Of a stretch of DNA of 64,000 nucleotides, positions 5,949-38,798 are shown piece by piece; positions within the stretch are counted from its first letter, which is position 1; each line of letters begins with the position of its first letter. Source of the DNA: Candidatus Omnitrophota bacterium (lineage in GTDB: Bacteria > Hinthialibacterota > Hinthialibacteria > Hinthialibacterales > JAKPRU01); the NCBI GenBank assembly GCA_029570205.1, contig JAKQSI010000065.1:124001-188000 (forward strand), read 5' to 3'. Position numbers and translations under genes: made by a program. The notes under the pieces were generated by a model. That model was not told the DNA's origin and made no database searches. It was given only the letters and a program-made list of their open reading frames with translations.

Positions 5949-8462
5949 TTAATCCGCCGACCGCCCCGCCCCTTCCGGAGCGCCAGGTGTTGAGGAATCC
6001 GGTTTGGAATTCGGCGTTTCAGAAGACGGAGGACCGCCGGCGCCGGGATCCACCTCGCGCGGCGTATTTTCATCGACCGTCCATCGGTCGATATATTCCT
6101 GCCCCGGCCCACTCACTTTATACCTCACACGATAATCATTAACGGCTGGATCAAGAATCCTCACACAACGATTCTCGTAATCGACTACGTAACCCTCCCC
6201 TTCGGTCAGCATTCTTCCGTTGACAATCACTTGAACAGATCCCTTTTCCAATGTGCCGTGGAATTGAAAAAGATCCCGACGGGGAACGCCCTTGGCAAGG
6301 AGATATAGCCTCTTATCCTGTTGGAACGGCCATTTCTCTCCGAGCAGTCGAATCTCCCCGGTGTCTTCGTTGTATGTATAGTCCCGATCTTTCTTGAGCC
6401 ACTGAAGAACATCAACACCCAGCGACCGGTCGCAAACTCCCAGCATGAAGCCCTTGCTGTATAGTCGGACTCTGTAGACCATCGGGTTATCTCTGTAAGG
6501 AGGCGGAGACTCTTCTATAAACAACTCTTCCGGGATCGTCGGGTCGTAATCCTCACAGGCAGAAAACGCAAGGCCCCGTCGCGCTGGGAGTAATTCTCGA
6601 TGTGATTCATGGGCCTGTGCGTGACCGATCAGCCAATGTCCGACAGTAACTTGGTAGTCGGCATCTTTCTCCAGGATTACAGGATTGGTCACATGAACTC
6701 TTCCGTTTTGATAATCCACAAAATAATCTTTACCCTCTTTCATCTCCTGCCCATTGACCACCACCCGCACATTACCTGGTTTGATCGGTCCTATTTTGAA
6801 CAGGAATAGATCCCGACGAGGGATGCCCTCGACAAGAACATATTCACCGGTTTCCTCTTTGAGCGGCACCATGTTTTCAAGAAGGGTGATTTGGGCTGTC
6901 TCTTCCGAATAAATATAATCACGATCTCGTTTTAGCCATCGCAGGTAATTCGGATCTCCCTGTTTGCCGATGCAAACAAGAAGCCCCCTGGTCTGGAGAA
7001 GCCGGTACAGCGGATACACCGTTCGGTCCGATGTCGCTCTTGGCTTTATTACGACGGATTGGGAGTAGTCGACGTTTGGATCGTAGTCCGTGGAGTCCGC
7101 GATGTTCCGATTGCGCGGTATCCCGCTTGTGTTACCGAACGCCCGATTCCCCGCCTGTACCAGATATTCGGCCTGGGGCCTTTTTATGGCAGGATTTGTT
7201 ACAATAACCTTGCCGTTTTGATAGTCCACCGTGTAGTCTTCCCCCTCTTTCATTTTCTTGCGGTCGATCTCTACCCACACATCGCCCGGCTGAATTGGCG
7301 TGTCAAAGACAAATACACTCTCCCAGAGAACGCCGTTGTAGTTTTCCGATTTCGCAGTTTTCTCTTCCCCCCCCCCGCTCTGCGCCGGCCCCGGCGAGAG
7401 CGACAGAAGAGTTGCGCCAACGATTACGACCAGCCCGATAGCCATACCATCACGAATTTTGCCAAACATGTCTTGCCTCCTGTCCGACAGAATGTGACGC
7501 ACCCGACGTGCGACAGAGGATCGTTTTTCACCGAATGGAACCGCAAATGCTCTCCCCTTCCCGTTCCCCGAAATCCAAATTTGTTTCAGCAGAAACTCGG
7601 CGTAAGATGCTTTCGCCTTCGTGATTTGCGTTACCTGAAAATCACACAGGATCTCCCGTTCCTCACGGATTTTCCGCAGTACCCAATGCACTACCGGATG
7701 GAAGAAATAGACGGCTTTCAGGAGCAATTCCAGCAGGAGCCACCAGCTGTCAAGACGTTTCAGGTGGGCCATTTCGTGCAACAGGGTAAACCGTAGCCCC
7801 TCGCGGTGTTCCATGTGAACTAGATGGCCCGGTACAAGGACGGTTGGGCGGAAGAATCCAATCGCAACCGGAACGCCCAGGTCCTCTCCCACAGCCAGGC
7901 GCGGCAACGCCCGAAGGCCGATCTGTCCGGCACATTCCCGCACAAGAGTCAGCACCTCCGGGTTGAGAACATCGCTTGACCGGCGAAGTGTGCCGCGCAC
8001 CCGCCACATCCCCCATAGAAGCCTGGCAAACAGCACGGCCACCCCCGCCAGCCACAGGCACACGAACAGCGATTTCCAGTCCGGCACACGGAACACGGGC
8101 AGCCTTTGAGGCGGCTCGGGATCGGAAGGCGCAGCAGGAACAGCCGCAGCGGATTCCGAACGCGGCTCATCAGGAAGGAAAATCGCTTTCTCTGCCGAGA
8201 CATACCCGGCATTCGAATCGCCGACCTCCACAGGCTCCGAGTCCACTCCGGCAGGCGGCAGGGCAACCGGGATATTCATCGGCAGGAAAGGCCCGACCGG
8301 GAACAGCAGCGGCAACAGAAGCACCAGGCCGAACATCCAATACGCCGCCCGTCCGCGCACACGCGCCAGCGCAACAATCCCGCCGGCAACCATTCCCAGG
8401 ACCAATAACTGCAATGAGGAAAGCACCAGAAACTCTGACAACCGATCCACCCAATCAGCCAT
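5949..8462 (-). CDS. BlaR1-like M56 membrane metallopeptidase sensor with C-terminal repeated modules
   Basis: This is an 837-residue membrane protein. The N-terminus has hydrophobic segments at about 8-60 and 130-150, then the zinc peptidase motif HEMAH (229-233) with downstream Glu/Asp ligands in REEREILCD (about 267-274), as in BlaR1/MecR1 sensors. Another membrane segment lies near 340-357. Instead of a penicillin-binding domain, the outer part has three copies of a beta-type module (about 390-437, 560-607, 739-784) with the pattern EGxDYxVDYxNGxVxVTNP. These alternate with two copies of a second module (about 480-545 and 660-730) containing RDRDYxYxExTxxIxLL and GIPRRDLF. By family knowledge, the sensor would cleave itself or the BlaI partner on stimulation. 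The ligand is unknown. The start at 8462 overlaps the blaI-like stop by 8 nt, so the pair is translationally coupled. Confidence 0.85.
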   Translation of the reverse strand: MADWVDRLSEFLVLSSLQLLVLGMVAGGIVALARVRGRAAYWMFGLVLLLPLLFPVGPFLPMNIPVALPPAGVDSEPVEVGDSNAGYVSAEKAIFLPDEPRSESAAAVPAAPSDPEPPQRLPVFRVPDWKSLFVCLWLAGVAVLFARLLWGMWRVRGTLRRSSDVLNPEVLTLVRECAGQIGLRALPRLAVGEDLGVPVAIGFFRPTVLVPGHLVHMEHREGLRFTLLHEMAHLKRLDSWWLLLELLLKAVYFFHPVVHWVLRKIREEREILCDFQVTQITKAKASYAEFLLKQIWISGNGKGRAFAVPFGEKRSSVARRVRHILSDRRQDMFGKIRDGMAIGLVVIVGATLLSLSPGPAQSGGGEEKTAKSENYNGVLWESVFVFDTPIQPGDVWVEIDRKKMKEGEDYTVDYQNGKVIVTNPAIKRPQAEYLVQAGNRAFGNTSGIPRNRNIADSTDYDPNVDYSQSVVIKPRATSDRTVYPLYRLLQTRGLLVCIGKQGDPNYLRWLKRDRDYIYSEETAQITLLENMVPLKEETGEYVLVEGIPRRDLFLFKIGPIKPGNVRVVVNGQEMKEGKDYFVDYQNGRVHVTNPVILEKDADYQVTVGHWLIGHAQAHESHRELLPARRGLAFSACEDYDPTIPEELFIEESPPPYRDNPMVYRVRLYSKGFMLGVCDRSLGVDVLQWLKKDRDYTYNEDTGEIRLLGEKWPFQQDKRLYLLAKGVPRRDLFQFHGTLEKGSVQVIVNGRMLTEGEGYVVDYENRCVRILDPAVNDYRVRYKVSGPGQEYIDRWTVDENTPREVDPGAGGPPSSETPNSKPDSSTPGAPEGAGRSAD

Positions 8463-29890: not shown

Positions 29891-31765
29891 GTGGTCGATT
29901 TCGAAACCGTAGAAGTTACGACCGATCTGTTGATCGTCGGTGGGGGTATGTCTGCCTGTGGCGCCGCCGTGGAGGCGGCGTATTGGGCGAAGAAGAACGG
30001 CCTGAAAGTAACTCTGGTAGACAAAGCCGTGATGGAGCGCAGCGGCGCGGTGGCTATGGGGTTATCTGCAATCAATCAATACATCGGACTGCGGGATGGG
30101 CAAAACACGGTCTGGGATTATGTCGATTACGTCCGGAAGGATCTGATGGGCATTACTCGTGAGGACCTTGTGTTTAATGTTGCGCGTCACGTGGATTCAT
30201 CGGTTCATCTATTCGAAAAATGGGGCCTTCCGATCTGGAAAGATAAAAAGGGAGCCTATATTCACGAGGGACGATGGCAGCTGATGATTAACGGTGAATC
30301 CTACAAGGTTATTGTAGCGGAAGCGGCCAGGAATGCTCTCGGAATGGAGAATATTTACGAGAGAGTATTCATTGTAGAACCGTTAATGGATGGGGATCGG
30401 GTCGCCGGCGCTGTCGGATTCAGTGTGCGCGAGAACAAGTTTTACGTATTCAAGGCCAAGGCGGTTGTTGTTGCCATGGGCGGGGCGGTGCATATCTTCC
30501 GGCCCCGGTCTATCGGTGAGGGCCTTGGACGAGCCTGGTATCCGCCGTGGAATTCCGGTTCCAGCGCCTATTTCACCCTGAGGGCGGGCGCAGAAATGAC
30601 ATGCCAGGAAGTGCGTTTTATCCCGGTCCGATTCAAAGACGGCTACGGACCGGTCGGAGCGTGGTTTCTTTTGTTCAAATCGCGTGCAACCAACGCCATG
30701 GGCGGCGACTACGTGGTCGAACACAAGGACGAGCTCCAAAAGTGGGGTGAGTACGGCAGCGTCAAGCCGATTCCGACTAACCTTCGCAACCGGCTTGTCA
30801 TGCTGGATGTCATGCAAGGTAAAGGTCCCATCTCCATGAGAACGGAGGAGGCCATCCGGAGGATTGCTTCGGCGGAATCGGACGGGAGAGCCGCGCAGAA
30901 GAAGTGGAAGGCTCTCGAATCCGAAGCCTGGGAGGATTTCCTGGACATGACGATTTCCCAGGCGATTTTGTGGGCCGCTACCAATGTACAGCCCGAAGAG
31001 AAATCGTCGGAAATCGCTGCCGCGGAACCGTACTTTATCGGCTCACACTCCGGCGCCTCCGGAGCCTGGGTCAGCGGCCCAGAAGACGTTGCTCCCCCGG
31101 AATACCGGTGGGGTTATGTCAACATGGCTACCGTCAAGGGGATTTTCTGTGCGGGCGATGCCTCCGGCGCATCCAGCCACAAGTTCTCCTCCGGCTCTCA
31201 TGCTGAAGGAAGAATTGCAGGGAAGTCTGCCGTTCGCTACATTGTAGAGAATCCACAGCAGCCGAAAGTCGATATGGCGCAGGTCGCGAAGCTGAAGGAG
31301 ACGATATTGAGGCCCCTCGATCTCTACCGGCAACATAAGAACGAAACCAGCGATCCGGAAATCAACCCGAATTATATTAAACCCAAAATGTTCATGTTCC
31401 GTCTCCAGAAGATCATGGACGAATATGCGGGCGGTGTCTCGGCGCAGTTCACCACAAACGAGTCCCTGCTCAAGAAAGGATTGGAACTTCTGGCATATCT
31501 CAAAGAAGACTCGGCTAATCTTGCGGCAAAAGACCTGCACGAGCTCCTGCGTTGCTGGGAGAATGTGCAGCGCATGTGGCAGGCGGAGGCTCATGTACGT
31601 GCTGTCCTGTTCCGCGAAGAAACCCGTTGGCCGGGATATTATTTCCGTGCGGATAAACCGGCGCTCGATGAGCAGAATTGGAAATGTTTCGTAAACTGCC
31701 GCGTCGATCCGAACACCGGGGAGTGGGAGATGATGAAACGGGATATCATCCCCCTCAGGTTGTAA
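29891..31765 (+). CDS. aprA: Adenylylsulfate (APS) reductase alpha subunit
   Basis: This is a 624-residue FAD flavoprotein of the fumarate-reductase-like superfamily. The FAD-binding start is DLLIVGGGMSACGAAVEAAY. RSGAVAMGLSAINQYIG, SVHLFEKWGLPIWKDKKG and HEGRWQLMINGESYK follow. AVVVAMGGAVHIFRPRS, EVRFIPVRFKDGYGPVGAW and NAMGGDYVV are typical of AprA, as is GDASGASSHKFSSGSHAEGR near the flavin. The C-terminal helical part contains RCWENVQRMWQAEAH. The GTG start follows AAGGAGG. Together with AprB it forms the cytoplasmic APS reductase, used in sulfate reduction or, in reverse, in sulfite oxidation. No sat, qmo, apt or dsr genes are in the window, so direction is undecided. Confidence 0.95.
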   Translation: MVDFETVEVTTDLLIVGGGMSACGAAVEAAYWAKKNGLKVTLVDKAVMERSGAVAMGLSAINQYIGLRDGQNTVWDYVDYVRKDLMGITREDLVFNVARHVDSSVHLFEKWGLPIWKDKKGAYIHEGRWQLMINGESYKVIVAEAARNALGMENIYERVFIVEPLMDGDRVAGAVGFSVRENKFYVFKAKAVVVAMGGAVHIFRPRSIGEGLGRAWYPPWNSGSSAYFTLRAGAEMTCQEVRFIPVRFKDGYGPVGAWFLLFKSRATNAMGGDYVVEHKDELQKWGEYGSVKPIPTNLRNRLVMLDVMQGKGPISMRTEEAIRRIASAESDGRAAQKKWKALESEAWEDFLDMTISQAILWAATNVQPEEKSSEIAAAEPYFIGSHSGASGAWVSGPEDVAPPEYRWGYVNMATVKGIFCAGDASGASSHKFSSGSHAEGRIAGKSAVRYIVENPQQPKVDMAQVAKLKETILRPLDLYRQHKNETSDPEINPNYIKPKMFMFRLQKIMDEYAGGVSAQFTTNESLLKKGLELLAYLKEDSANLAAKDLHELLRCWENVQRMWQAEAHVRAVLFREETRWPGYYFRADKPALDEQNWKCFVNCRVDPNTGEWEMMKRDIIPLRL

Positions 31766-32614: not shown

Positions 32615-33925
32615 GTGGACGTCACATCAGAACGGCAAGCAAGTCTGCGGGAATTGGCGCGACGGTTGGGGGTGCCCCATGTCGATCTCGGTTTGTTGCA
32701 TGAGGCTCTCTGCCACAGCTCTTTCGCCAATGAGAATGCGAATTGCTCCACGTACGGCAACGAACGCCTGGAGTTTCTGGGAGATTCGGTTGTCGGCCTG
32801 GCAGTGACCGAAGCCCTCTACCTGGAATTCCCCGAAATGAGAGAAGGGGATCTCTCCAAGATCAAATCGATCATCGTATCCAAGCGCATTCTTTCCGAAC
32901 GAACGGAGGAACTGGGACTTGGTGACTATCTTCTGCTCGGCAAAGGAGAAGAGCAAACCGGAGGCCGACGTCGGTTTTCGATCCTGGGGAATCTTTTCGA
33001 GAGTGTGGTGGGCGCAATTTATCTGTCGGAAGGGATTGAAACGGCGAAGCAGTTTGTGCTGAATCAGGTCGGTGAGGAGCTTCACCGCGCCGCTGTCGGG
33101 GAAAGCATCATCGACTATAAATCCGACTTGCAGGAACGGACACAGAAGGAATTCGGAGTCCTCCCGATCTACCGTCTGGTGCATTCGACCGGACCGGACC
33201 ACGACCGCGAATTTGTTGTTCAGGTCTTGATTGGAGAGACCATCCTTTCTGAAGGGGCCGGAAAAAGCAAGAAAAAGGCCGAGAAGGCGGCAGCCCAAAA
33301 CGCTTTGAAAAGGCTGGATTCCGATAGAACCAGGCCGGTTCCTGAACTTACGGAAGAGCCGACCTTTCGACAATCTCAAGAACCGGCCCCTGTCGGTATG
33401 CCGACAGTCCCCACGGAAACACCGCCACCGACGTGCCTGCCCCCAATTCATTTGTCCCAACCGAGAAGAGTCAGGCCGTTGACTGCCGTTCCCAGGGAAG
33501 GGCGGATTCTTGCTATCGACCTGGGAGAAAAGCGAATCGGCATTGCGCTCTCGGATGAACTTCGAACAATTGCTCAGCCCCTGGTCACCATGAAGAGCAA
33601 CCGCGCCTCTGCGCTCGTGAAAGATGTGACCGAGTTGATACGAAAGCATGAGGTTTCTGCGGTTGTGGTGGGGCTGCCGCGCACACTGGATGGGCAGGAG
33701 AGAGAGTCTGCCGCCGCGGCCCGCAAGATCGCCGACCGACTGCAAAAAAGCCTTTCCATGCCTGTGATTCTTTGGGATGAGCGTCTCTCTACAGTCGGTT
33801 CCGAGCGTCATCTGATCGAATCCGGTGTCCGTCGCAGGGACCGCCGGGATGTGATCGACCAGTGCGCCGCAGCATGGATTCTCGAAGGCTACCTGGAATA
33901 TCTCCGGCAGAATGACATCCCGTGA
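32615..33925 (+). CDS. Ribonuclease III - RuvX (YqgF) fusion protein
   Basis: This is a single 436-residue frame carrying two complete rRNA-processing enzymes. Residues about 8-155 are the RNase III endonuclease domain: NERLEFLGDSVVG (49-61) has the catalytic Glu/Asp, and ILGNLFESVVGAIYL (123-137) has the second acidic site, with Asn126 where E. coli has Asp. Residues about 167-234 are the double-stranded-RNA-binding domain, ending GKSKKKAEKAAAQNALKRL. A Pro-rich linker (about 238-290) follows, partly encoded by a 57-bp repeat. Residues about 297-430 are RuvX/YqgF: ILAIDLGEKRIGIALSD, VVGLPRTLDGQ, WDERLSTVGSERHL and DVIDQCAAAWILEGYL, all with intact acidic residues. RNase III cuts 30S pre-rRNA, and YqgF trims the 16S 5' end. 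A GTG start at 32615 is likely. The GTGA stop/start overlap couples the next gene. Confidence 0.92.
   Translation: MDVTSERQASLRELARRLGVPHVDLGLLHEALCHSSFANENANCSTYGNERLEFLGDSVVGLAVTEALYLEFPEMREGDLSKIKSIIVSKRILSERTEELGLGDYLLLGKGEEQTGGRRRFSILGNLFESVVGAIYLSEGIETAKQFVLNQVGEELHRAAVGESIIDYKSDLQERTQKEFGVLPIYRLVHSTGPDHDREFVVQVLIGETILSEGAGKSKKKAEKAAAQNALKRLDSDRTRPVPELTEEPTFRQSQEPAPVGMPTVPTETPPPTCLPPIHLSQPRRVRPLTAVPREGRILAIDLGEKRIGIALSDELRTIAQPLVTMKSNRASALVKDVTELIRKHEVSAVVVGLPRTLDGQERESAAAARKIADRLQKSLSMPVILWDERLSTVGSERHLIESGVRRRDRRDVIDQCAAAWILEGYLEYLRQNDIP
33333..33389. repeat. 57-bp palindromic repeat, copy B, inside the RNase III-RuvX linker
   Basis: This copy aligns without gaps to copy A at 31984-32040. 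It lies in frame within the linker, encoding PVPELTEEPTFRQSQEPAP, and its length (57 = 19 codons) keeps the frame. The ends GGCCGGTTC and GAACCGGCC are complementary. Confidence 0.75.
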
Positions 33926-35961
33926 ATGCTGAAACGGATCATGCACCCTCGCCGCAATCCTCTCCCAAGGGGAGAAGGGGCGATTTTTATCGGCAACCGG
34001 CGCTGGTCCTTGTCCTGATCACCGCCGTTTTTGTTGGTGTGTATCATTCCTCGCCGGTTCTTGTTGTTGCCTGGCGACTGAGGGAGTTCCTCGCGGGTGT
34101 GATTCCATTTGTGATCGGTTGGCCTCTGGGGTGGTTGATCCTTCGTCGAGAAGAATCCTTGACGAAGACGGAGCGAATCATTTTATCTCTCGGACTCGGA
34201 CACGGGATTCTATTCGGATTCACCTTTCTGTTGCTGACCCTGCGCTTATTCTACGCCGAGTTGATTCCGGTTCTGGTCGGCCTGTCAATCCTGCTTACCT
34301 GGAAAATCTGGGTGGATCTTCTCCGCACCCTCTTTGCTGCCGGCGCTAAAAGTCACACAGAACTGCGGGAGAACAATCTCTGGATTTTTTTCCTGGTTCT
34401 CGCCGGGATTTTGGGGCTTGGGTGTTCCCTGCTCCCGCCGCTGAATTATGACGCCCTCGAATACCATTTGGCGGTTCCGGAGGTCTGGATTCGACACCAT
34501 GGCTGGGTGGCATTCCCGCTGAACATTTATGCCTGGTTTCCCATGAATGTGGAGATTCTCTATTCGTGGGCGCTCATCTTGGGAGAGACTGCATCCGCCG
34601 TGGTGGTACATTTTCTTTTCGCAGTGGCCTGCACAGTAGGGATTCTTTGCATTGAGACCCGAAAAAGCGGGCTATTATCCTGTTGGCCGGCTGCGGTCCT
34701 GTTTGTGTCGAGCGGTCTCATTATTCGGCTCGCCATACAGGCGGATATCGACTTGGGTGTTTGTTTTTATGCCCTGCTCGCCCTGATGATGTTTCTTCGC
34801 TGGACGGAGAGCGCACGGCCCTCGGCAGTCATTCTGTCATCGGTTTTTGTGGGACTTGCGCTCGGCTGCAAATATATCGCGGTCATTTCCGTTTGGATTC
34901 CCATGCTGGTTCTGGTCTTGCGATTCGGGCCGTCCGGGCCGCGCCTGCGGGGCTTCTTGTGGATGGCATTCCTGCCGCTGTGTCTCCTTGCGCCCTGGCT
35001 GGTGAGAAATGTGTGCATGGTTGGCAATCCGGTGTTTCCCCTCCTGTATTCCTGGTTTGGTGGGGAGAATTGGACCGATGCTGCTGCCGCTTTCTTCCAG
35101 GCCGCGCATTCTCCCAAGGCTTTGGGACTATCAGGGCATTTGATCGAGCTGATTCGAGCGCCGCTGGATTTGACCATCCTGAATCTCACGGTTTTCTCTC
35201 CCCTGATATTGGCCGGTGCAGCGTTGGCTTTGATCCGTCGGAACGGCAATCGTGACCTGTGTATTCTGTGGATTTATTCCCTGGTGGCTTTCGCATTCTG
35301 GTTTGTTTTTACACAGCGCAATCATCGATTTCTTGTGACCGTCGCCCCGCCGCTGGCTCTGATTGCTGCCTGGGGTATCGCACCCGAAGTTCGAATCCAG
35401 AAAACCGTCCGATGGGCCGTGGTTTTCGTGGCATCCTATTCTCTTTACCTGCTGTTGATGACTCTCTCCCTGGATGGAGGTCTGAAATATCTTGTGCTGG
35501 GGGAAACGGAGGACCAGTATTACGAGCGGCTTCTGCCGCATACGCGAGCCATTCGTTTCCTGAACGAGACGGCGCAACAGCGGCCTGTGCGGACAATGTT
35601 TGTCGGAGAGGCACAGGCGTACGGGCTACGCTGTGAGGCCATTGTGCCCGTTGTGTTCAATGTGCATCCCTGGATTCCACATGATCCGTTCGGCAACGCC
35701 ATCTCGCAGACAACCGAACAGGCGTTGCACCGACTTTGGGAACTGGGGGTGACGCATATTCTGTTCAATCAGTCGGAAATGAATCGTCTCATGCGGGGAT
35801 TTCTGCCACTGGGCTGGCCGGATGGCCGCGAGCTGGCACGACTGGTTCCTCTGATGGAAAAAGATTTTCTTAAACAGGTTTTCGAGACCGAAAACGGGAT
35901 CATTCGGGTTCTGGAGGTTCCGCCACCTCCAGCGGACAAGAAAGCCGATGCGCCTTCCTGA
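33922..35961 (+). CDS. Polytopic membrane glycosyltransferase-like protein (GT-C fold)
   Basis: This is a 679-residue membrane protein with about 12-14 hydrophobic segments and a soluble C-terminal domain (about 540-679). The first large loop contains PPLNYDALEYHLAVPEVW, the acidic motif position of GT-C enzymes that take sugars from polyprenyl phosphate. FPMNVEILYSWALIL follows. The likely role is transfer of a lipid-linked sugar on the outer face of the membrane, but no acceptor can be named. The N-terminal ~20 residues (APSPQSSPKGRRG) come from a common C/G-rich palindromic repeat (near 33950-33980), not from the conserved family. The GTG start overlaps the stop of the RNase III-RuvX gene by 4 nt. 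Confidence 0.75.
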   Translation: MNAETDHAPSPQSSPKGRRGDFYRQPALVLVLITAVFVGVYHSSPVLVVAWRLREFLAGVIPFVIGWPLGWLILRREESLTKTERIILSLGLGHGILFGFTFLLLTLRLFYAELIPVLVGLSILLTWKIWVDLLRTLFAAGAKSHTELRENNLWIFFLVLAGILGLGCSLLPPLNYDALEYHLAVPEVWIRHHGWVAFPLNIYAWFPMNVEILYSWALILGETASAVVVHFLFAVACTVGILCIETRKSGLLSCWPAAVLFVSSGLIIRLAIQADIDLGVCFYALLALMMFLRWTESARPSAVILSSVFVGLALGCKYIAVISVWIPMLVLVLRFGPSGPRLRGFLWMAFLPLCLLAPWLVRNVCMVGNPVFPLLYSWFGGENWTDAAAAFFQAAHSPKALGLSGHLIELIRAPLDLTILNLTVFSPLILAGAALALIRRNGNRDLCILWIYSLVAFAFWFVFTQRNHRFLVTVAPPLALIAAWGIAPEVRIQKTVRWAVVFVASYSLYLLLMTLSLDGGLKYLVLGETEDQYYERLLPHTRAIRFLNETAQQRPVRTMFVGEAQAYGLRCEAIVPVVFNVHPWIPHDPFGNAISQTTEQALHRLWELGVTHILFNQSEMNRLMRGFLPLGWPDGRELARLVPLMEKDFLKQVFETENGIIRVLEVPPPPADKKADAPS

Positions 35962-36002
35962 CAGCGATTTAAGAAGGCGGAGTGAAAAATAAATCGGGAG
36001 AA

Positions 36003-36075
36003 TGGAGCACATGGGATTCGAACCCACGACCTCTGCCTTGCGAAAGCAGCGCTCTCCCAGCTGAGCTAGTGCCCC
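36003..36075 (-). tRNA. tRNA-Ala (anticodon CGC)
   Basis: A full cloverleaf reads on the minus strand: acceptor GGGGCAC pairing with GTGCTCC and including the G3-U70 wobble that marks alanine tRNAs, D arm GCTCAGCTGGGAGAGC, anticodon stem CTGCT / GGCAG with loop TTCGCAA (anticodon CGC), and T arm GTGGGTTCGAATCCCAT. The discriminator base is A, and CCA is not encoded. The tRNA lies between two plus-strand protein genes and faces the opposite way. Confidence 0.95.
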
Positions 36076-36329
36076 GGAAAAATGGAACATGCGGTTCAGG
36101 AACGAGGCAAGTTCCGCATTCCACATACAACATACCGCGCCGCCTTTTCTTGTCAATCCAGGCTTGGAAAACGGCTTTTGGCCTTGGGCCGAAAGACTTC
36201 CTGAATTTCAAAGAACTCATCCCCGAACCGCAGAGAATAGCTGGCCTTCAAACGACGGCACAGGTTTACTACAGTCTCGAAGGTATGTTTTCACAAAGTT
36301 CAGTTTTAACATCCTTTTTGAATTCACGC

Positions 36330-38798
36330 ATGGCGAACGCGAGATTTTTTCTTGTTATCGGCTTCCTCGTTCCTTTCTCCACGACTGTCGTGTGGGGCGC
36401 GGAGATCCTTTTCGAGGAGGGTCCCAGCCGGATTGTCGGCGGCGATTGGGCCGCGCGCATGGCCCGGCAGATTTCTGGTGAACCGCGACCGACCGACATT
36501 TCCGACACGCTGATTCGGGAAATGATCTCTGCCGCCACTCTCGACTTTCTTTTGCCCCACACCGGCAGTCTTGCCCAGGCAATCCGGCGGTATGGCTGGG
36601 CGCAGTTCGAACAGGAACCCGAACAGGTTCCCACGGCGCAGAAAGTCCGTTTCTTTGTCGATTCCGCGACTCCCTCGGTTCTATGCCTGGAGCATCCGGG
36701 CAATACTAATGTTGTCGACATCCGGGCAACGGCGGATATTCGGAGCGGGAAGGTTCAAGTGGAACGATTCCCGATCGTCGGTAACGAAGACCGGACAGTC
36801 TATGCGAGTTTTCTCTCTGTTGAGAATATGGTCCTGTACCAGGAGCATTTTCAACGCCGGTTCTTTGAGGAAATGCTGGATTTGAACCGGCCCGGCCTGG
36901 AACGTGTCCGCGATGCATACCGCGCAAATAAGAAAACCCTTGCGGTCTACGAACTCTCCGAGTACTTTCGGAATAAAACTACCCCGGCGGCGCTCATCCG
37001 AAAACCCACCGCCACTCCCCAGTCGGCTACAACGGAAACCGCCGAGGCGATTTGCCGCCATGAATTCAATATCCAGGGAACTTTGTATCAATTTGGAGCG
37101 CAAATTGACTGGTCCTGTTATCATACCGTACCGGCAGAATGGCTCTGGTCTTTAAATAACTTGACACACCTGATTGTATTACTGAACGGCTACCTGGACA
37201 CCTCGAATGAAAAATATGCGGCCGAGTTTGTTGCTCAGATTACGGATTGGATTATCCGGAATCCCGCTCCTCCGTACACATTAACGCGAGTAGCCGCCTG
37301 GCGGAACCTGGAGGCGGGGAATCGCGGTGTCAATGCGCTTCCGATCACCTTCTATGGATTCCTGTGTTCCGATGCGTTTACACCTCAAGTTATCCAGCTG
37401 ATGCTCGGATCGATTTGGAGCCATGGGGACTATATCCTGAAATATCCCGCCGGATGGCGCCGTCCCAGCAACTGGAGCGTAGTCGATTCCACGGGCCTTG
37501 CGGCAATAGCCGTGTATTTCCCCGAATTCCGCGACGCGGAACAGTGGAAACGGGCCGGGTACGAACGTCTGGCGAAACAATTGCAAATGCAGGTTTACCC
37601 CGATGGAGCGCAGTGGGAACTCGCTCCCTCGTACCATCTCTATTGCCTTGACCGATTTCACCGTGCCTATGATCTGGCCCTCGAAACCGGCGTGCCGATT
37701 CCGGGCGATTTCGGTAAACGTCTCCAGTCCATGTACGACTACCTGATGTGGATCTGCAAACCCGACGGCACGGTCCCGGCTTTCAGCGACTCCACAAGCC
37801 CGTCTGTTCTAGCCGTACTCCAGCAAGGCGCGGAGCGATTCAATCGTCCGGATTTCCGATATGTCGCCACAAGCGGCAAGGATGGGACACCTCCCGCGGA
37901 AACGTCGCACTATCTACCGTATGCCGGAAATGCCGTCATGCGAAGCGGATGGGATGAAGAGGCCCTGTACCTTTGCTTCGATGGCGGCCCTCTCGGCACA
38001 AATCACCAGCATGACGATAAACTCTCATTCGAACTCTCTGCTTACGGAAAGAATTTCATTATCGATCCTGGACCGTACCGGTATGTCTTGAACTCCTGGC
38101 GTTCGTATGCCGTCAGTACACAAGCTCACTCTACGGTTATGATCGACGGCTTCGGTCAGAACCGCCTTTATTTTTCCACAGAGCATGAGGCCCCACAAAA
38201 TCCGACACCTGTCTGGCAATCGAATGATCTATTTGACTATACAATGGCAAGTTATGACTGCGGATACGGGGTAGATTCAATACCGGTCATCCACAAACGT
38301 CATATCTTCTTCAAAAAGAATGAGTATTGGATTCTTCTGGATGAGATTGTGGGCGAAGGAAAGCGCCGCATGGAATCTCTATTTCATTTCGGCCCGGAAT
38401 TCGAGCTGAAGAGACGGGATAATCTTTCCGTATATACACAACAGGAAACGGGACCGAATTGTGCGGTTATTCCGGCAAACACCCCCGGTCTGGAGGTTTC
38501 GATTATCAAAGGCAGGGAAACACCGTCCATACAGGGATGGTATCTTCCCAGCGAAGAAGGCCGGAAGCCCGCACCCGTGGCCTGTTATGAGTTTACCGGA
38601 AATGTTCCTGCGGTTTTTGCTTACCTCTTGTTGCCGTATCGGGATTCGTTCCCCTCCGACTCTCGGCTCGTATTGGATCAAGACAATGATGGTACTGCAA
38701 CTCTGGCCGTCCACATTCCCCCAAAGCAGGTGGATCGTATTCAAATTGATCTCAAGAATCATTCCGCCGAATGGCCGACAACATCCGACAGAGACTGA
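36330..38798 (+). CDS. Heparinase II/III family polysaccharide lyase-like protein
   Basis: This is an 822-residue secreted protein. A signal peptide (RFFLVIGFLVPFSTTVVWG) is followed by an N-terminal alpha/alpha toroid (WLWSLNNLTHLIVLLNGYL; PSNWSVVDSTGLAAIAVYFPE; GAQWELAPSYHLYCLDRFHR). Then comes the heparinase II/III beta-sandwich domain with GPLGTNHQHDDKLSFELSAY, FIIDPGPYRY, and STQAHSTVMIDGFGQ carrying the catalytic/metal His and Tyr region. Enzymes of this fold cleave uronic-acid polysaccharides (heparin, alginate and others) by beta-elimination. The specificity is open. The start is the ATG at 36330, giving a clean signal peptide. The frame itself runs back through the tRNA to 35982, which is not coding. 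It heads an operon with a binding protein and two permeases (29-bp gap). Confidence 0.88.
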   Translation: MANARFFLVIGFLVPFSTTVVWGAEILFEEGPSRIVGGDWAARMARQISGEPRPTDISDTLIREMISAATLDFLLPHTGSLAQAIRRYGWAQFEQEPEQVPTAQKVRFFVDSATPSVLCLEHPGNTNVVDIRATADIRSGKVQVERFPIVGNEDRTVYASFLSVENMVLYQEHFQRRFFEEMLDLNRPGLERVRDAYRANKKTLAVYELSEYFRNKTTPAALIRKPTATPQSATTETAEAICRHEFNIQGTLYQFGAQIDWSCYHTVPAEWLWSLNNLTHLIVLLNGYLDTSNEKYAAEFVAQITDWIIRNPAPPYTLTRVAAWRNLEAGNRGVNALPITFYGFLCSDAFTPQVIQLMLGSIWSHGDYILKYPAGWRRPSNWSVVDSTGLAAIAVYFPEFRDAEQWKRAGYERLAKQLQMQVYPDGAQWELAPSYHLYCLDRFHRAYDLALETGVPIPGDFGKRLQSMYDYLMWICKPDGTVPAFSDSTSPSVLAVLQQGAERFNRPDFRYVATSGKDGTPPAETSHYLPYAGNAVMRSGWDEEALYLCFDGGPLGTNHQHDDKLSFELSAYGKNFIIDPGPYRYVLNSWRSYAVSTQAHSTVMIDGFGQNRLYFSTEHEAPQNPTPVWQSNDLFDYTMASYDCGYGVDSIPVIHKRHIFFKKNEYWILLDEIVGEGKRRMESLFHFGPEFELKRRDNLSVYTQQETGPNCAVIPANTPGLEVSIIKGRETPSIQGWYLPSEEGRKPAPVACYEFTGNVPAVFAYLLLPYRDSFPSDSRLVLDQDNDGTATLAVHIPPKQVDRIQIDLKNHSAEWPTTSDRD

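Follow-up and report, generated by a model that had tools for sequence, protein, structure and literature searches.

It was found that RNase III and RuvX (YqgF) are encoded as one polypeptide in a Candidatus Omnitrophota bacterium, and that the joined gene is a conserved single-copy trait of its genus. I put the probability at roughly 0.68 that this is a real fusion of two enzymes, employed as a single polypeptide, which arose by the collapse of a gene cluster and serves its genus as the sole RNase III, the sole RuvX/YqgF, and a bifunctional rRNA-maturation nuclease. The features of the locus are compiled in Table 1, with positions counted in the window, that is, the whole 64,000-nucleotide stretch of DNA that was analyzed.

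Table 1. Features of the rnc-ruvX fusion locus
Feature	Position	Strand	Basis and remarks
rnc-ruvX fusion gene	32615..33925	+	436 codons, GTG start, TGA stop; ORF and domain matches; full-length in G001 and G002
RNase III catalytic domain, residues 16-160	32660..33094	+	TIGR02191 and PF14622; alignment to 1o0w and 2a11
dsRNA-binding domain, residues 168-234	33116..33316	+	PF00035, 3e-17
Pro-rich linker, 58 residues (237-294)	33323..33496	+	composition, coding constraint, low pLDDT
In-frame ATG (Met262) in linker	33398..33400	+	conserved in three genomes; weak Shine-Dalgarno
TTG (Leu289) adjoining RuvX domain	33479..33481	+	possible former ruvX start; TTA in G002
RuvX/YqgF RNase H-like domain, residues 297-428	33503..33898	+	PF03652, TIGR00250, D302, E389, D415, model
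Downstream membrane-protein gene	33922..35961	+	ORF; overlaps fusion stop by 4 nt; weak NF047510 match, below cut-off

A preliminary description of this DNA had noticed the single open frame, the proline-rich linker, and the main motifs of both enzymes, and each of these was recovered here. The 436-residue product matches both domains in full, 15 of the 58 linker residues are proline by composition, and the predicted active-site residues of both enzymes are kept except for one Asn in the RNase III part. With NCBIfam and Pfam profiles used for domain assignment, TIGR02191 matches at full length (residues 16-234) with 240 bits against an equivalog cut-off of 166. Over residues 297-428, PF03652 scores 145 bits (cut-off 29) and TIGR00250 118 bits (cut-off 43). 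A genome-wide profile search of the same genome (4.39 Mb, 93% complete) found one PF03652 match and one PF14622 match, both in the fusion frame; neither a second rnc nor a separate ruvX was found in this 93%-complete genome.

The catalytic acids of RNase III are, in E. coli numbering, E38, E41, D45, E65, D114, and E117. In the RNase III alignment (A2), E50, E53, D57, E77, and E129 of the fusion are invariant, and the equivalent of D114 is Asn126 (SILGN126LFES). The preliminary description had pointed out this Asn in place of the usual metal-ligand Asp and had held that it need not mean a loss of activity; the sequence bears out the former. Of 80 related loci covered by a motif search, 10 have Asn at this position and 2 have Gly; in the sister family (f2), all RNase III enzymes have Asn there. 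Asn126 is thus older than the fusion and not a defect caused by it. Like other bacterial RNase III enzymes (rnc; TIGR02191), the fusion has complete catalytic and dsRNA-binding domains with the catalytic acids apart from the D114 equivalent, but it differs in the C-terminal RuvX extension and in Asn126 for the common Asp.

The active site of YqgF is marked by three carboxylates, an Asp on β1, a Glu on β5, and an Asp on α3 (PMC9601230), and the RuvX domain of the fusion has all three. These residues, D302, E389, and D415, are invariant in the RuvX alignment (A3) and were aligned to 1vhx, 7ess, and 1nmn. When the whole protein was modeled with AlphaFold2, the RNase III catalytic domain had a pLDDT of mostly 84-96, while the linker fell below 50 at residues 239-295 and RuvX was modeled poorly. 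The RuvX domain modeled alone (AF2, seven sequences) reached a pLDDT of 84.8. The top PDB matches of this model (7ess, 1vhx, 1nmn, and 7w89) are all RuvX/YqgF proteins; the closest is M. tuberculosis RuvX 7ess, and the TM score of about 0.8 to 7ess and 1vhx indicates an RNase H-like fold. The models describe the fold of each domain separately, and the linker is predicted to be disordered or flexible. The RuvX part thus shares the full RNase H-like domain and the three carboxylates with known RuvX/YqgF proteins (PF03652). Elsewhere, however, RuvX is normally a free protein of ~140 amino acids, whereas here it is the C-terminal domain of another nuclease.

Could the joined frame be an assembly error or a frameshift artefact that unites two genes? 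The relatives are MAG-derived and the sister family has separate genes, as such an artefact might have it. However, a full-length fusion is also present, at one place each, in the separate assemblies G002 (97% identical) and G001 (89% identical), on contigs JAKPRU010001108 and JAKPYU010000061 of this pair. All three genomes of the genus have it, always as a single copy, and the same domain order in relatives with neither enzyme encoded apart is what the preliminary description had proposed to look for. The sample comprises three genomes of one uncultured genus, with n=14 genomes for the class. Across the three genome comparisons, the dN/dS ratio is higher for the linker (0.17-0.41) than for either enzyme domain (0.06-0.08), and the linker has a dN of about 0.25 versus 0.03-0.04 in the domains. 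Each comparison shows more synonymous than nonsynonymous changes per site in the linker (Fisher p values of 0.0011, 0.0015, and 0.012); as they share genomes, the comparisons are not independent. The linker differs in length among the genomes by one in-frame indel of 24 nt (8 codons), and no stop codon occurs in it in any of the three. The substitution pattern thus indicates that the linker is under coding constraint. Since a 58-codon linker stays open in 16.5% of shuffles, which makes openness alone not significant, the weight lies on conservation rather than on the mere openness of the frame. The constraint, the in-frame indel, and the lack of stops, seen in three concordant assemblies, rule out the artefact, whose probability is negligible. 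The species that have kept the fusion differ by about 0.5-0.8 synonymous substitutions per site.

Other open frames surround the fusion. An antisense frame of 439 amino acids (32627-33946, minus strand) mirrors the whole gene, which is probably a codon-phase effect; it was rejected as a gene because it is not conserved in G001 (locus L048), where the longest minus-strand ORF is 6298-7011. The 4-nt overlap of the downstream gene with the fusion stop is also found in G001 (L048 7284). About 850 nt upstream of the fusion lies aprA, encoding the adenylyl-sulfate reductase alpha subunit (29891-31765, plus strand; TIGR02061, 931 bits versus a cut-off of 642), which by sequence is a predicted marker of dissimilatory sulfur metabolism in the lineage. 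Farther downstream, an ORF for a heparinase II/III-type protein, taken at its longest (35982-38798, plus strand), overruns a tRNA-Ala(CGC) gene (36003-36075, minus strand). Since this tRNA lies inside the ORF on the opposite strand, the true start of the protein must lie downstream of it.

The sister family shows how the fusion may have been formed. In all six of its genera, the RNase III gene is followed on the same strand, after about 1 kb, by ruvX, and each time a radical-SAM gene occupies the space between them. The same two enzymes in the same order and on the same strand are thus adjacent in an rnc-radical SAM-ruvX cluster (e.g., L010) of three separate genes, in contrast to the one gene of the fusion genus. 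In the two loci whose ORFs were read, the rnc stop codon directly abuts the radical-SAM start (L010) or the ORFs overlap (L006). The radical-SAM protein of L010 (2212-3222) has PF04055 and PF16199, the latter a Radical_SAM_C domain, and reaches the NCBIfam cut-off of none of the families listed. Both domains of the fusion are closest to the sister family, with 61-67% identity for RNase III and 43-50% for RuvX, and thus were inherited vertically. No orthologue of the sister-family radical-SAM protein was found in the fusion genus, where the best matches are distant paralogues of 27-28% identity. When a radical-SAM remnant was sought in the linker by tblastn, all matches were at chance level, with E values of 0.87 or higher. 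Since the genes are separate and adjacent in the sister family and the radical-SAM gene is gone from the fusion genus, the cluster most likely collapsed by loss of the middle gene and joining of the flanking frames, which is the simplest history. The reverse history, in which the sister family gained the radical-SAM gene by insertion, is less likely but compatible with the outgroups, where rnc and ruvX are unlinked; the class includes more distant families in which they lie on different contigs. Under the collapse, the TTG at Leu289 may be the old ruvX start codon; a sister ruvX (L050) starts with ATG-ACT, similar to the Leu289-Thr (TTG ACT) that just precedes the RuvX domain. The preliminary description had regarded close relatives with two genes as evidence against the fusion. 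The sister family does keep the genes separate, but a third gene stands between them and the genus is uniformly fused; thus, the separate genes point to the origin of the fusion and do not refute it. In genome G011, the catalytic and dsRNA-binding parts of a second RNase III (G011:C46:226518-227200) match in different open frames, possibly as a pseudogene or a contaminant.

What might the fused enzyme do? RNase III is the usual first enzyme of rRNA processing (PMC10582724). The function of YqgF is disputed among 16S trimming, Rho antitermination, and Holliday-junction cleavage (PMC9601230). In E. coli, 16S precursors build up when YqgF is lost and are matured by the purified protein (PMC6943124). 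The fusion suggests, but does not prove, that both enzymes work on the same RNA, and a 16S precursor is a plausible shared substrate. If both domains are active and stay joined, the RNase III part would dimerize and cut double-stranded pre-rRNA stems, carrying two RuvX domains per dimer, each tethered about 58 flexible residues away. The tethered RuvX would trim the single-stranded ends of 16S precursors, either on the same particle or on one close by. More specifically, and only tentatively, RNase III might dock on the processing stem of 16S rRNA and release a single-stranded 5′ end that the tethered YqgF might then cut, so that early and late steps of 30S maturation are coupled in a dedicated pre-rRNA enzyme.

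The fusion might channel successive rRNA steps, but the preliminary description went beyond the evidence in placing two of them on one molecule. E. coli YqgF reportedly processes pre-16S only within 70S ribosomes and shares its cleavage sites with RNase E/G (PMC9601230). The genome encodes two RNase E/G paralogues, and the step that follows RNase III may therefore not be that of YqgF. YbeY is encoded as well (it was not found in the fragmented G002); given this and the RNase E/G paralogues, enzymes other than the fusion may produce the mature 16S 5′ end. The exchange of the usual metal-ligand Asp for Asn126 also counts against the bifunctional reading. A 16S gene was not found in the genome itself (G000). 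Those of G001 and G002 (L143 and L144) are only 86% identical though the genomes are placed in one genus, which suggests that one or both MAGs include a contaminant contig; probably, the two are not both from the fusion genus. For these two 16S genes of doubtful origin, the flanking stems had duplex energies no better than shuffles as RNase III substrates.

The two domains may share a polypeptide for co-expression only, by a neutral gene collapse with no mechanistic coupling on a common RNA. This reading is unlikely but the most probable of the rivals. A long, fast-evolving disordered linker imposes little geometry, the ancestral cluster probably co-expressed both enzymes already, and the fusion is restricted to one genus. 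Nevertheless, the fusion was kept across species, though a single stop and restart would have split it, and ribosome-biogenesis factors fuse elsewhere too, as Era-RNase III and YbeY-Era show (PMC10582724). It is clearly less probable that the frame yields two proteins, the fusion and a free RuvX, by an internal start or proteolysis in the linker. Cleavage in vivo is conceivable because the linker is predicted to be disordered, and ATG262, the only ATG candidate for internal initiation, is present in all three genomes. However, its Shine-Dalgarno energies are only -1.7 to -2.9 kcal/mol in the three genomes. The boundary TTG has a good one in G001 (-9.5 kcal/mol) but is present in two of the three genomes, being TTA in G002. 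Thus, a conserved internal start with a good Shine-Dalgarno was not found in the linker of the three genomes, and the whole linker, including the part upstream of the putative starts, is coding-constrained.

Very improbable is a coupling in repair, in which RNase III would target the dsRNA formed at transcription-replication conflicts and RuvX would act on RNA:DNA hybrids or Holliday junctions. In vitro, cleavage of Holliday junctions or hybrids is known for some YqgF/RuvX proteins (PMC9601230), and the closest match of the RuvX model is the M. tuberculosis protein. On the other hand, a canonical RuvC is encoded elsewhere in the genome, so RuvX is not needed as the main Holliday-junction resolvase. 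The 16S precursors that accumulate on YqgF loss in E. coli (PMC6943124) and the usual place of RNase III in rRNA processing (PMC10582724) also stand against a role in repair. A bifunctional rRNA-maturation nuclease is the reading I prefer.

Is this fusion common? In a sample of about 300 further genomes outside the class, no other RNase III-RuvX fusion was seen among the matches listed. It was missing from one phylum of 59 genomes and from 47 genomes that lie outside the class. In a phylum of 195 genomes, 16 long-frame RuvX matches were checked among those listed, and none had an RNase III within about 1-2.5 kb. Plasmids held no full-length match. The preliminary description had regarded such a fusion as apparently undescribed, in agreement with the open-access literature, in which no description of an RNase III-YqgF/RuvX fusion was found. 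Era and RNase III are fused in some Rickettsia, and YbeY and Era in Clostridia and others (PMC10582724). The former likewise joins RNase III to a ribosome-biogenesis factor, whose gene often adjoins rnc (PMC10582724), but the partner is the GTPase Era and not a nuclease. The latter likewise unites two small-subunit maturation factors (PMC10582724), neither of which is RNase III or YqgF. Fused ribosome-maturation factors are thus already known as a kind, while the RNase III-RuvX pairing is apparently new and, as far as the open-access literature goes, undescribed. The covalent joining of YqgF to RNase III, natural and fixed in genomes that encode RuvC as well, is genomic evidence for a role of YqgF in RNA maturation. 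The fusion offers a concrete, expressible protein for testing whether YqgF works on RNase III products, and the sister cluster points to a radical-SAM gene that was lost in step with the fusion.
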